From positions 1 through 64,000 of the forward strand of contig VGCZ01000026.1 of the NCBI GenBank assembly GCA_016869975.1: a DNA stretch of 64,000 nt, written 5' to 3'. Within the stretch, counting starts at the first letter, position 1; the number at the start of each line of letters is the position of its first letter. The translations under genes and the position numbers were made by a program. Origin of the DNA: Alphaproteobacteria bacterium. GTDB lineage: Bacteria > Pseudomonadota > Alphaproteobacteria > Reyranellales > Reyranellaceae. The notes beneath the pieces are model-generated. The model made no database searches. It had not been told where the DNA came from and saw only the letters and a program-made list of their open reading frames with translations. Shown piece after piece: positions 18,097-23,312 of the stretch.

Positions 18097-18444
18097 CTAT
18101 TTGATCTCGCTGCACCGATAGCTGCCGAAATCCGTTGCGTATCGGGGCGCGATCGCGCCTTCGCGGGGCATGGGCGCACGGCAGACCCGGGCAGAGCTGT
18201 CCTTCTGAATGAAGATTAACGGATTGGCCTCGACCGTCTGCACGGCGGTCCGGATCTGGTAGCCGGCGCGCAGGCTGGCGGCGAGCGTCGGCGCATCGGG
18301 GTCGTCGGCGCGCTGCGGTTCGATCGGCCGGGCCGCCGGCGTCTGCGCCTGCACCGGCGTAGGGGTTCGCTGGGCCAGGGACGGGGCCGCGCACAAGAGA
18401 AGCGATAGGGCCAGGGCCGCGCGCATCAGAGGGTTGGTTCGCAT
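18097..18444 (-). CDS. Secreted hypothetical protein
   Basis: The 115-residue product has a Sec signal peptide (MRTNPLMRAALALSLLLCAAPSLAQ, cleavage after LAQ). A Pro/Ala-rich linker and a small C-terminal domain follow, with two cysteines (in RVCRAPMP and SYRCSEIK) that could form a disulfide in the periplasm. I recognise no family. GGAGG lies upstream and the ATG overlaps the TGA of the D-aminoacylase gene by one base (TGATG), so it is translated as the downstream member of that operon. Confidence 0.65.
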   Translation of the reverse strand: MRTNPLMRAALALSLLLCAAPSLAQRTPTPVQAQTPAARPIEPQRADDPDAPTLAASLRAGYQIRTAVQTVEANPLIFIQKDSSARVCRAPMPREGAIAPRYATDFGSYRCSEIK

Positions 18445-19904
18445 CAGGCCGCCTCCTTCTTCAGGTCCTTGAGGCGCAGGACCCGGCCGCCGCCACCCAG
18501 CGCCGGATGCCCGCCCTGCCACGCCACGACGCCGTTGCACAGGGTGAGCACGATGCCCCGCGCCGGCTTGATCGGTTCCTCGAACGTCGCCGTGTCGATC
18601 ACCGTCGTCGGATCGAAGACGCAGATATCCGCGTAGTGACCCTCGCGCACCAGGCCACGCTTCGCCAGGCCGAAGGTCTTGGCCGACAGCGACGTCATGC
18701 GTCGTACCGCGTCCTCGAGCGGGAACAGGCCGAGATCGCGGCTATAGTGGCCGAGCACGCGCGGGAAGGTTCCCCACAGCCGCGGGTGCGGATGCTGGTC
18801 GAGCGGCAGGCCATCGCTGCCGATCATCGCCTGGGGATGCGACAACGCCTTGCGGACATCGTCCTCGCTCATTTGCCAGTAGATCGCGCCGGCTGGCTGC
18901 AGGCGGTCGGCCGCATCGTAGATCGAACACCCCAACTCGGCGGCGATATCCTTCAGGTCGCGACCGCCCGCCGAAGGCATCGCCTCCGACCAGGTGACCA
19001 TCACCTTGTCGGCGCGATCGAGCATCTCCTTGCGCAGGATGGTCGAGCCCGCGACGTAGGGATAGACGTCGAATGCGATCGGCCAGTCTTTCATCGCCTG
19101 GTCGAACTTCGGCAATGTTTCGCGCATGCGGCCGAAATTCTGCCGGCTGGCGCATTTGTGGTGCGACACCACCACCTGAGCGCCGGCGCGCCGGCCGATC
19201 TCGAAGGTCTCATCCATCGCCGCCAGGATGTCGTTGCCCTCGTCGCGCATGTGCGCGGTGTAGACCGCGCCGTGTCGGCCCAGCGGGGCGGCGACCTCGG
19301 CCACCTCGTCAGTCGTGGCGTGCGCCGCCGGCGGATAGAACAGCCCACTCGACATGCCGACCGCGCCGTCGCCCAGCGCGTTGTCGAGCATGTCGCGCAT
19401 GCGCGCCGTCTCGGCGGCGGTGGCCGCGCGGTCGAGGTCGCTGCCCAGCACGCTGTAGCGCAAGGTAGCGTGGCCGATCAGGAAGGCGCCGTTGATCGAG
19501 GGGCGCGCCGCTTCGACCAGCTCGGCGAAGGCGGCGAAGCTCTGCGTCAGGAAACGCTCCTGCTTGACGATCAGCGACAGATTGTGCGGCGCCGGCTTGG
19601 GGCCGCTGTACGGCGCCGGGCTGAAGCCGCAATTGCCGCAGACCACCGTCGTCACGCCCTGGCTGGCCTTCATCGCCATCGAGGGATTCTCGATCAGCGC
19701 CGTGTCGTCGTGCGTGTGCACGTCGATGAAGCCCGGCGCCACCACCTTGCCCGATACGTCGACCTCGTTGTCGCCCCTGAGCGAGCCGGGCAGGCCGACC
19801 GCGACGATGCGGTCGCCCTTGACGGCGACATCGGCGCCACGGCGCGGCGCGCCGCTGCCGTCGATCAGCGTGCCATTGCGAAGAACAAGGTCATAGGCGG
19901 TCAT
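18444..19904 (-). CDS. N-acyl-D-amino-acid deacylase family amidohydrolase
   Basis: This 486-residue protein belongs to the amidohydrolase superfamily, D-aminoacylase branch. The N-terminal beta-sandwich begins YDLVLRNGTLIDGSGAPR. The first metal motif is FIDVHTHDD, the CGNCGFSPAP loop (which includes a metal-bridging Cys in D-aminoacylase) follows, then VVSHHKCA and the late IGSDGLP with the catalytic Asp. Family members hydrolyse N-acyl-D-amino acids to the D-amino acid and a carboxylate. It sits between two M81 peptidases, suggesting processing of D-residue or acylated peptides. Downstream, a small secreted protein is coupled to it. Confidence 0.88.
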   Translation of the reverse strand: MTAYDLVLRNGTLIDGSGAPRRGADVAVKGDRIVAVGLPGSLRGDNEVDVSGKVVAPGFIDVHTHDDTALIENPSMAMKASQGVTTVVCGNCGFSPAPYSGPKPAPHNLSLIVKQERFLTQSFAAFAELVEAARPSINGAFLIGHATLRYSVLGSDLDRAATAAETARMRDMLDNALGDGAVGMSSGLFYPPAAHATTDEVAEVAAPLGRHGAVYTAHMRDEGNDILAAMDETFEIGRRAGAQVVVSHHKCASRQNFGRMRETLPKFDQAMKDWPIAFDVYPYVAGSTILRKEMLDRADKVMVTWSEAMPSAGGRDLKDIAAELGCSIYDAADRLQPAGAIYWQMSEDDVRKALSHPQAMIGSDGLPLDQHPHPRLWGTFPRVLGHYSRDLGLFPLEDAVRRMTSLSAKTFGLAKRGLVREGHYADICVFDPTTVIDTATFEEPIKPARGIVLTLCNGVVAWQGGHPALGGGGRVLRLKDLKKEAA

Positions 19905-20369: not shown

Positions 20370-21869
20370 TCACGCCTCGTTGCGGCCAAGCTGTAGATCG
20401 GGCTCGAAGGGGTACATCGGCTTGCGCCGGTTGACGTAGGTGAACAGCGCGAGGTCGGAGCTGGTGCAGCCATCGCCGTCGCACATCACGATGTGCTTGG
20501 CGATCGGCTCGAAGCCTGCGCGGAAGTGCTGGCGCGACTTGATGATGACGTACTTCTTGCGGCGTGGGTCGATGCCGCAATGGGTGAAGACGCCCAGATC
20601 GTAGGGTTCGCTGCGCTTCTCCGAGACGACGATCTGCATCGTGCCGGTGTCGAGCACGGCGGTACGGCCCATACGCACCTTGGTGCCGGTGGCCATCGGC
20701 CCGGTGACGACGAACTCGCCGTCGGTGACGCATTTGACCTTGCCGCTGACCTTCAGCGGCTTGCCTCTGAGGTTGAGCTGCGGCATGTCGACCTTGCCGC
20801 CGAGCTCGAGACTTACCGTCGCGCCGATGCCGGCCTCGATCATCTTGGCCACCGCGGCGGGATCCCAGATCGGCCCGGCGCAGACGTCTCGCAGGCCTTG
20901 CTTCATCGCCTCTTCGACCACGCTCATGACGTCCTGCGTGCCGCCCGAGGCGGTGTTGTCGCCATGGTCGGCGAGGATGATCGGCCCGCCATCGAGCGTC
21001 TTGGCGCCAGCGACCTGTTGGGCGAGCGGCGCGCCCTTATAGAGAAAGGCCTCGCGCCGGTCCCAGGCCATGTCGAGCAGGCGGTTCAGCAGGATCTCGC
21101 CCTCGGCCGTGCGCTTGTCGCAGACGATCACGGCGGAGCAGGAGAGGTGCGGGATATCTGCTTGCGGGAAACCGCCGAACACCGAGGCGTTGAGCACCTG
21201 GCCGGAATCCTCGGCCAGGTTGGCCATGTCCATGATGTCCTTCATGGGCTGGCGCGAGGGCGTATGGACCAGCGAGCTGGTCAGCATCGGCCGCACGCCC
21301 CAGACCATCTTCGGCGCGACCTCGCCGTCGAGCATGCGAACCAGCGTATTGCCGGCGCGCTCGCCGGTGTGGCCCATGTCGATATGCGGGTAGGTACGAT
21401 AGCCGGCGATGACGTCGCAGTTCTCGACCATGTCAGCCGTGAGCTGGGTATGGAAATCCAGCCCGACTGCGATCGGCAGCGCGGGCGCCATCGCGCGGAT
21501 GCGGCGCAACAGTTCACCCTCGCCGTCGTCGAGATGCTCGGCGACCATGGCGCCATGCAGGGCGAGGAACACCGCGTCGCAGCCCTTGCCGATCCCCTCC
21601 AAGATCGCCGCGCTCATCCGCTCGTAGGCGTCCTTGTCGACATAGCCAGAGGGATGGGCGCTGGCCGACATCGGGACGGCGATCTCCGCGCCAATCCGCC
21701 GCGCCACGTTGATGAAGCCGCCGATCGTGGTGTTGGTGCCTTCGGCCTCGGCGATCGCCGCCGTGCCCACCAGTGGCCCATTTGGTCCGAACGAGCCGAG
21801 CGGCGTCGGCACCGGCGAGAAGGTGTTGGTCTCGTGCATCATCATGGCGATGACGATCTTGCGGGCCAT
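20370..21869 (-). CDS. M81 family metallopeptidase (MlrC-like), copy 2
   Basis: The 499-residue protein has the complete M81 pattern: MMMHETNTFSPVPTPL at the N-terminus, the LHGAMVAEHLDDGEG segment, metal motif LDFHTQ (Asp138, His140) and YRTYPHIDMGHTGERAG (His162). The NTASGGTQDVM loop and MlrC C-terminal domain follow. It is only distantly similar to the M81 protein at 16136, so it is not a recent duplicate. It heads a minus-strand run with a secreted protein, D-aminoacylase and another secreted protein. Expected location is the cytoplasm, since no signal peptide is seen. Substrate is unknown; amide or peptide bonds next to modified residues are the family precedent. Confidence 0.9.
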   Translation of the reverse strand: MARKIVIAMMMHETNTFSPVPTPLGSFGPNGPLVGTAAIAEAEGTNTTIGGFINVARRIGAEIAVPMSASAHPSGYVDKDAYERMSAAILEGIGKGCDAVFLALHGAMVAEHLDDGEGELLRRIRAMAPALPIAVGLDFHTQLTADMVENCDVIAGYRTYPHIDMGHTGERAGNTLVRMLDGEVAPKMVWGVRPMLTSSLVHTPSRQPMKDIMDMANLAEDSGQVLNASVFGGFPQADIPHLSCSAVIVCDKRTAEGEILLNRLLDMAWDRREAFLYKGAPLAQQVAGAKTLDGGPIILADHGDNTASGGTQDVMSVVEEAMKQGLRDVCAGPIWDPAAVAKMIEAGIGATVSLELGGKVDMPQLNLRGKPLKVSGKVKCVTDGEFVVTGPMATGTKVRMGRTAVLDTGTMQIVVSEKRSEPYDLGVFTHCGIDPRRKKYVIIKSRQHFRAGFEPIAKHIVMCDGDGCTSSDLALFTYVNRRKPMYPFEPDLQLGRNEA

Positions 21870-22104
21870 CCGCGAACTCCTTGATTAGTCGACGAAATCC
21901 CGACCAATCGTGCCCGTGCCGGCGGTCAACGAACAGCCTCACCCTGGCATGGGTCGTATGGAGATGCGCAGGGCTCGCACGAGAATTCCTGCTGCGTTGC
22001 AAAAATAAAACACAGAGTCTGCACGGTAAACAGGCGTTTATATCCTGAAACTACAGCGTTATTTTCCTCTTGCCACGCCTTCGCAGACGCACCATATTTG
22101 TGTC
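21870..22104. other. Intergenic region upstream of the sRNA candidate
   Basis: No convincing gene is visible. The stretch 21990-22075 is markedly AT-rich for this genome (AAAAATAAAA at 22001-22010, TTTATATCC around 22037-22045) and probably holds promoters for the M81 gene (minus) and for the small RNA (plus). TATATC at 22039-22044 is a possible -10 on the plus strand, but I cannot pair it with a good -35. Confidence 0.4.
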
Positions 22105-22205
22105 ACGGCAAACGTCGTTTCGACGACTTCTTTGTTTGCCGTAATGCCCGTCTTGGGCGTTTCCTCCCTAAAACTCGGGCGGTGTCTTTGACACCGCCTT
22201 TTTTT
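22105..22205 (+). ncRNA. Candidate trans-acting sRNA, alpha-r8 (MmgR)-like
   Basis: No reading frame fits here, yet the plus strand holds a chain of structures ending in a textbook terminator. ACGGCAAAC (22105-22113) pairs with GTTTGCCGT (22134-22142). GCCC/GGGC forms a small hairpin at 22146-22158. An unpaired TTTCCTCCCT lies at 22160-22169. GGCGGTGTC-TTT-GACACCGCC plus seven T ends it at 22205. The ten-base UUUCCUCCCU single-stranded between a hairpin and a terminator is, as I recall the literature, the hallmark of the alphaproteobacterial alpha-r8 family (S. meliloti MmgR, about 77 nt, linked to polyhydroxybutyrate control). The motif resembles an anti-Shine-Dalgarno sequence and would suit Hfq-assisted repression. 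The 5' end is uncertain and may lie nearer 22135. Confidence 0.72.
22178..22205 (+). terminator. Strong rho-independent terminator of the sRNA
   Basis: A perfect nine-base stem (22178-22186 with 22190-22198) and TTT loop are followed by seven T (22199-22205). No plus-strand protein gene lies upstream, which is what points to an RNA gene. In the other direction the stem is followed by CGAGTTTTA, so it could also end the minus-strand amidohydrolase transcript. Confidence 0.85.
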
Positions 22206-22219
22206 CGTCCTCGAGACGC

Positions 22220-23107
22220 CTATTCGGCGGCGAAGGCGGAGTGACCCAGGGTGGCGTGGCCGACATCCTCGACGAACTCGGCGAGGTGGCGCGACAGGGC
22301 GGCGAAGCCGGCATGCGGGCGCATCGCTGCCTCGTCCATATAGAGCGCCCTGTTGATCTCGACCTGCAGGACATGGACGCTGCGGCCGGGTGCGCCGTAG
22401 TGCTGGGTGGTGAAGCCGCCGGCATAGGGCTGGTTTCGCACGGCCCGGTACCCGCGGACCCGCAACCAGCCCTCGGCCAGGCCGATCAGCGCCGGCGCGC
22501 AGGCGGCGCCATGGTTGTCGCCGAGGACGAAGTCGACCCTGCCGCCCTTGCCGCCCAGCCCGACCGGCGAGTTGGACGGCATCGAATGGCAATCGACCAG
22601 GACGCAATGGCCGAAGCGCTCCAAGGTTTCGTCGATCAGCCTGCGCAAGGCGGCGTGGTAGGGCCGGTAGTACCAGGCCAGGCGGCGCTCAAGCTCGGCC
22701 ACCGGCAGACGGCGGCGGTAGAGTGGCTGGCCGTCGAAGGCGACACGCGGCAGGCAGCCCAGGCCGGCGGCGACGCGTGGCGAGCGCGTGTTGGCGTGGC
22801 CGGGCAGGGCGCCGTCGAACATCGCGGGGTCGACTTCGTAGGCCTCGCGGTTGGCGTCGACGAAGGACCGCGGATAGAGCGCCTTGAGCATCGGCACGCC
22901 GGACTTCGCCGCGAGCGCGAACAGGTCGTCGACATAGGCGTCCTCGGCGCGTCGCAGCACGGCCATCTCGAGATGGGTCTGGCTCAGGAAATCGGTGGGA
23001 TAGGCGCGGCCGCTATGCGGCGAGGCCAACACCACCGGCAGCGTCTGGGCCACCGGACGGTCGATCTCGATCGGCGGCGATGGCTGCGCGGCGGGACTCG
23101 ATTCCAT
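22220..23107 (-). CDS. N-formylglutamate amidohydrolase family protein
   Basis: The 295-residue protein is an FGase (N-formylglutamate deformylase, HutG-like) family member. Diagnostic segments are VVLASPHSGRAYP, RRAEDAYVDDLF, RSFVDANREAYEVDP, the metal-binding VLVDCHSMPS and a late NQPYAGGFTTQHYG with VEINRALYMDE. The reaction of characterised members is hydrolysis of N-formyl-L-glutamate to glutamate and formate, the last step of one histidine pathway; no hut genes are nearby. Here it more likely serves general salvage of N-formylated or acylated amino acids, like its M81 and D-aminoacylase neighbours. It has no signal peptide. Confidence 0.9.
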   Translation of the reverse strand: MESSPAAQPSPPIEIDRPVAQTLPVVLASPHSGRAYPTDFLSQTHLEMAVLRRAEDAYVDDLFALAAKSGVPMLKALYPRSFVDANREAYEVDPAMFDGALPGHANTRSPRVAAGLGCLPRVAFDGQPLYRRRLPVAELERRLAWYYRPYHAALRRLIDETLERFGHCVLVDCHSMPSNSPVGLGGKGGRVDFVLGDNHGAACAPALIGLAEGWLRVRGYRAVRNQPYAGGFTTQHYGAPGRSVHVLQVEINRALYMDEAAMRPHAGFAALSRHLAEFVEDVGHATLGHSAFAAE

Positions 23108-23237: not shown

Positions 23238-23312
23238 GGGCGCGTAGCTCAGCGGGAGAGCACACCCTTGACATGGGTGGGGTCGCAGGTTCAATCCCTG
23301 CCGCGCCCACCA
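23238..23312 (+). tRNA. tRNA-Val (anticodon GAC)
   Basis: A full cloverleaf is visible. The acceptor stem GGGCGCG (23238-23244) pairs with CGCGCCC (23302-23308). The D arm is GCTC...GAGC. The anticodon stem CACCC/GGGTG holds loop TTGACAT, giving anticodon GAC. The T arm GCAGG/CCTGC holds loop TTCAATC. The CCA end is encoded (A at 23309, CCA at 23310-23312). It reads valine GUC/GUU codons, GUC being heavily used in the surrounding genes. I see no integrase or duplicated 3' end nearby, so it does not mark an integrated element in this window. Confidence 0.95.

Follow-up and report, generated by a model that had tools for sequence, protein, structure and literature searches.

A Predicted Alpha-r8 (MmgR/SisA-Type) Small RNA Gene in a Reyranellaceae Bacterium

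The Locus and Its Predicted RNA

The Reyranellaceae are a little-studied lineage of soil and water. In the window, by which we mean the whole 64-kb stretch of DNA analyzed from one genome of this family, a small-RNA gene occupies the 350-bp gap between a convergent gene for N-formylglutamate amidohydrolase (FGase) and a divergent gene for an M81/MlrC metallopeptidase (Table 1). An earlier note on this DNA had described both flanking genes as amidohydrolase-type; PF05013 identifies one as the FGase, PF07364 and PF07171 identify the other as the metallopeptidase, and the true amidohydrolase-family gene lies one gene further out (18444–19904). The absence of a plus-strand coding frame claimed in the same note agrees with our search, in which no plus-strand ORF of at least 80 aa was found at the small-RNA locus.

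Table 1. Features of the small-RNA locus and its neighbors (positions in the window).
Feature	Position	Strand	Basis
Predicted alpha-r8/MmgR small RNA, ~101 nt	22105..22205	+	Promoter-inferred start, fold, terminator, Rfam RF00519
5′ hairpin, 9 + 5 pairs	22105..22142	+	Fold, relatives; outside the Rfam model
GCCC/GGGC hairpin of the Rfam model	22146..22158	+	RF00519 alignment, fold
Seed UUUCCUCCCU, essentially unpaired	22160..22169	+	Sequence, fold, aligned to RF00519 consensus
Rho-independent terminator, 10-pair stem + 7 U	22177..22205	+	Fold, sequence
Sigma-70-type promoter, TTGCCA -17 bp- CATATT	22070..22098	+	Consensus scan; conserved in relatives
Dyad CGCAGACGCA (CGCRNNYGCA), between −35 and −10	22082..22091		PhaR/AniA-operator-like, one extra spacer base
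FGase gene, convergent	22220..23107	−	PF05013, 247.5 bits
Metallopeptidase M81/MlrC gene, divergent	20370..21869	−	PF07364 + PF07171

The TTGCCA-17-CATATT promoter was the only match of the consensus scan in 1.3 kb (0.1 expected), and its position puts the start of the RNA near 22105 and its length at ~101 nt. Sequence and folding both recover the nine-pair outer stem of the 5′ hairpin where it had been described, with ACGGCAAAC (22105–22113) opposite GUUUGCCGU (22134–22142), and folding adds an inner five-pair stem that had gone unmentioned. The GCCC/GGGC hairpin is likewise present (22146–22149 with 22155–22158), and the seed that follows, reported as an unpaired ten-base motif, is free in the minimum-energy fold, with only its first two U drawn into an extension of the GCCC hairpin. 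A single-stranded 10-mer of this sequence 3′ of a weak hairpin is a mark of the alpha-r8 family. The terminator does have the strong stem and the seven U (22199–22205, following the stem) attributed to it; the stem (22177–22199) has 10 pairs, of which nine are Watson-Crick and one is G-U. The minimum free energy is −44.7 kcal/mol, compared with −25.8 ± 3.1 in shuffles (z = −6.07), and 0 of 200 shuffles were equally stable. A strong terminator with no gene upstream had been read as the mark of an RNA gene; promoter, fold, terminator and Rfam match together bear out an intergenic small-RNA gene.

Assignment to the Alpha-r8 Family

The alpha-r8/MmgR RNAs are tied to carbon-storage control. The element was first described in 2005 under the name suhB (PMC1273637), and the family is known from Sinorhizobium meliloti (MmgR, 77 nt), Caulobacter (SisA-D) and others (PMC12559287, PMC7143759). 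When the whole window was scanned against all 4227 Rfam families, two matches exceeded their cut-offs, a tRNA at 23238 and RF00519 (suhB, synonymous with mmgR and alpha-r8) at 22139–22213. The latter, obtained with Infernal as the earlier note had recommended, scores 58.6 bits against a gathering cut-off of 41 (E = 1.7e-9 for the whole 64-kb window) and covers model positions 1–77 of 77, which supports the alpha-r8 (MmgR)-like identity first proposed from the motif. The model begins within the 3′ strand of the 5′ hairpin. It is very probable, in our view, that this Reyranellaceae bacterium encodes at the locus a trans-acting small RNA of the alpha-r8 (MmgR/SisA) type, with an expression and mode of action that we infer.

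Like MmgR of S. meliloti, the window RNA combines the seed UUUCCUCCCU, the GCCC/GGGC hairpin and the terminator, all within the RF00519 model, and both genes have a dyad between −35 and −10; unlike the 77-nt MmgR, it is predicted to reach ~101 nt and to carry a 14-pair 5′ hairpin. With SisA-D of Caulobacter crescentus it shares family and seed, and sisA too lies downstream of an FGase gene (PMC12559287). Caulobacter, however, has four copies and the sponge CrfA, whereas this genome has one copy above the RF00519 cut-off, and the CrfA-binding residues of SisA extend over the seed at 33–45, while the window seed falls at about residues 56–65.

Conservation and Neighborhood

A match was found in 25 of 25 Reyranellaceae genomes searched, and the locus is therefore an added member of a known family, expected in this lineage, and not a new system. 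Among relatives, 35 of 41 score above the RF00519 cut-off; in a sample of the class, 87 of 144 genomes have a match under stricter filters that drop weak matches. An exact 28-mer core recurs in 67 stretches, largely from Reyranella, Enhydrobacter, Vineibacter and related MAGs. Loss of the motif or the hairpins in relatives, which would have spoken against the earlier proposal, was looked for and not encountered: core, terminator and 5′ hairpin are kept. The suggestion that the family would be extended to this lineage holds as to presence in Reyranellaceae, but carries modest weight, as PMC12559287 already cites a phylogenetic study reporting alpha-r8 throughout Alphaproteobacteria except Rickettsiales.

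That paper describes alpha-r8 as mostly single-copy and located beside a putative N-formylglutamate amidohydrolase gene (PMC12559287), and the adjacency to FGase seen in the window is common. A convergent downstream FGase gene is present at 84 Reyranellales loci and missing at 8, five of which lack room for it, and it recurs at 24 of 31 loci elsewhere in the class, with some genomes entered under two locus ids in these counts. The M81/MlrC neighbor is also present at most Reyranellaceae loci.

Compensatory changes speak for the 14-pair 5′ hairpin that lies beyond the Rfam model. Across 66 distinct Reyranellales sequences, 99.1% of its cells are paired, against a mean of 92.0% and a maximum of 93.4% in a partner-shuffled control, and nine of the pairs are changed on both sides. 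RNAalifold, applied to the family alignment, paired the invariant 3′ half wrongly in its consensus, and only the 5′ stem of that consensus was used. A class-wide 5′ hairpin was considered and dropped, since the fold test (43 of 65 versus a shuffle mean of 31.6 and maximum of 41) told real from shuffled sequences poorly; the claim is therefore restricted to Reyranellales, where covariation supports it. At one locus (L082) the hairpin lacks its inner part and is reduced to a shorter outer stem. The 66 sequences thus supply the family with a 5′ domain missing from the Rfam model.

Copy number varies elsewhere: two genomes of one genus (G053 and G162; loci L309, L310, L326, L329 and L330) have three tandem alpha-r8 copies within ~600 bp. 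In this genome a second match (C35:55387, 31.3 bits) was not counted as alpha-r8, because it is below the cut-off, its relative L366 is weakly BjrC1505-like, and other sub-cut-off loci fit SorX better. This weaker CCUCCCU-type element (C35:55387–55465, equal to L002 1501–1579) has a counterpart in another genome of the genus (L366 280–359); both match suhB at 31–36 bits, below the cut-off, and the latter also matches BjrC1505 weakly. It probably represents a separate anti-SD sRNA gene. Two other Reyranellaceae genomes have SorX-like matches (39.8 bits, cut-off 46.6), at L368 139–207 and L371 135–203 (minus strand).

Alternative Explanations

Because SorX/SorY (RF02784/RF02651) and BjrC1505 (RF02356) RNAs share with alpha-r8 the order of CCUCCCU seed, ACU and terminator, the locus might be a different anti-SD sRNA that resembles alpha-r8 through these common parts, and SorY does score 22.6 bits on the small-RNA stretch. 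That score falls far short of the 111 bits set for SorY, in contrast to RF00519, which clears its cut-off comfortably with 58.6 bits against 41, and the Rfam matches on this stretch include neither SorX nor BjrC1505. The full UUUCCUCCCU, the GCCC/GGGC hairpin and the FGase neighbor all fit alpha-r8, and the match in this genome that is nearer to the SorX/SorY/BjrC1505 group is the weak C35 element, so that an identity of this kind for the window RNA seems very unlikely.

Alternatively, the stretch could mainly serve the convergent FGase mRNA as its 3′ end or terminator, with the plus-strand structure a by-product; the FGase stop codon is ~15 nt from the terminator, and an inverted repeat can be read on either strand. 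Yet the U run, the promoter and the seed are all on the plus strand, the CGAGTTTTAGGG that follows the minus-strand hairpin makes a poor U tract, and the compensatory changes fall in the 5′ hairpin, at a good distance from FGase; we consider this reading extremely improbable. Equally improbable is a silent relic, conserved by recent common descent and not transcribed, given that several genera with diverged flanks show compensatory changes and have kept the promoter dyad invariant, which indicates selection. An alpha-r8 small RNA gene is the reading retained below.

Promoter and Operator Spacing

In S. meliloti, AniA/PhaR represses mmgR via a dyad between −35 and −10 (PMC8401924). The mmgR site, with TGCACCGCA in it, conforms to YGCRNYGCR, and purified PhaR binds it efficiently (PMC12542648); the PhaR consensus of B. 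diazoefficiens has equal spacing (PMC6201568). The canonical operator TGCRNYGCA, a feature of the S. meliloti mmgR promoter that does not define the RNA family, was not found between −35 and −10 in the window. The dyad there, CGCAGACGCA, is one base longer (YGC-N4-GCR, as opposed to TGC-N3-GCA in the mmgR site CAATTGTGCACCGCAGCATTA; PMC12542648).

The promoter is kept in sequence and position in 70 Reyranellales promoters, and all 70 have the longer dyad, as CGCRNNYGCA (~2 expected by shuffling for YGCRN2YGCR), against only one with the canonical YGCRNYGCR form. In other families of the class, YGCRNYGCR occurs in 46 of 65 distinct alpha-r8-type promoters (100 bp examined; ~3 expected, maximum 7 in 200 shuffles) and the one-base-longer dyad in 10 of 65 (2.5 expected, maximum 7). 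The alpha-r8 riboregulator, its FGase neighbor and a TGC/GCA-type operator are thus shared by lineages well beyond rhizobia and Caulobacter. Phasin upstream regions of Reyranellaceae hold 32 canonical versus 2 longer dyads in 14 regions, and the phasin genes of this genome carry canonical sites.

PhaR, phaB and phasin genes are present in this genome, but control of the Reyranellaceae small RNA by PhaR is uncertain because the spacing of the promoter dyad is non-canonical. As a tentative and rather doubtful proposal, the Reyranellales alpha-r8 genes may have left the canonical PhaR operator for the longer dyad, the phasin genes keeping the canonical one, and the 5′ hairpin may be a lineage-specific addition. 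If so, control of the small RNA would be uncoupled from the phasin circuit, through a different regulator or through PhaR with altered affinity. A change of spacing fixed in one order, and not in its phasin genes, would be a case of possible rewiring between PHB sensing and the small RNA. Apart from the 5′ hairpin and the operator spacing, which are its lineage-specific features, the locus is a mostly ordinary alpha-r8.

Three alpha-r8-type promoters from other families of the class (L321, L363 and L365) contain two longer dyads each, CGCAGCTGCG and CGCAATTGCG in the case of L321, and phasin upstream regions in the same genomes have canonical sites. Because of these paired copies, the longer dyad may have arisen more than once. 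A partly conserved block, GTAAA...TGTGAA-like and followed by TTTTT, was also seen 5′ of the −35 element in Reyranellaceae (window 22020–22065 and equivalents).

Candidate Targets and Proposed Mode of Action

MmgR has an effect on PHB accumulation, and in S. meliloti it affects the phasin protein level. Targets were sought here by pattern searches and in short stretches of this and related genomes. Phasins were set aside as direct targets, being mostly without a good seed match at their start codons, some of which are ambiguous. The sequence AGGGAGGAAA before ATG was found at many substrate-binding-protein genes and, in five Reyranella genomes, at phaB, a gene identified from its sequence. The enrichment of substrate-binding-protein genes was discarded as target evidence, since a control SD, AAGGAGGAAA, is also largely found before such genes (~10 of 30 loci). 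This genome has 49 GGGAGGAA starts compared with 80 HGGAGGAA starts, no strong excess, and target evidence of this sort is weak because the complement of the seed is itself a Shine-Dalgarno sequence.

For phaB, the RBS in this genome is CGGGAGGAAGATCATG, and seed-complementary GGGAGG is present at the phaB RBS in all eleven readable genomes of the family, this one included, with varying flanking bases. We take phaB as a predicted target, a lead and not proof, because GGGAGG also makes a good Shine-Dalgarno motif and these genomes are relatives of one another. For MmgR, a direct target in the PHB pathway is missing, and phaB would be a concrete candidate for it; no transcript has been identified in S. 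meliloti as a direct base-pairing target of MmgR (PMC12559287, PMC7143759).

Transcription from the promoter at 22070–22098 would yield the ~101-nt RNA, ending at 22205. With Hfq, whose gene is present in this genome, the unpaired seed would be expected to pair with GGGAGGA-type ribosome-binding sites, and such pairing would block translation or destabilize the mRNA; in Caulobacter, SisA has been shown to repress by way of this seed (PMC12559287). The level of the small RNA would probably be set by a repressor at the −35/−10 dyad, the PHB-sensing PhaR/AniA in the S. meliloti system, and storage and uptake genes would thereby track the carbon state. On the opposite strand, the FGase transcript meets no good terminator ahead of the small RNA (window 22139–22219), and in the conserved convergent layout FGase mRNA could titrate the small RNA by antisense run-in.
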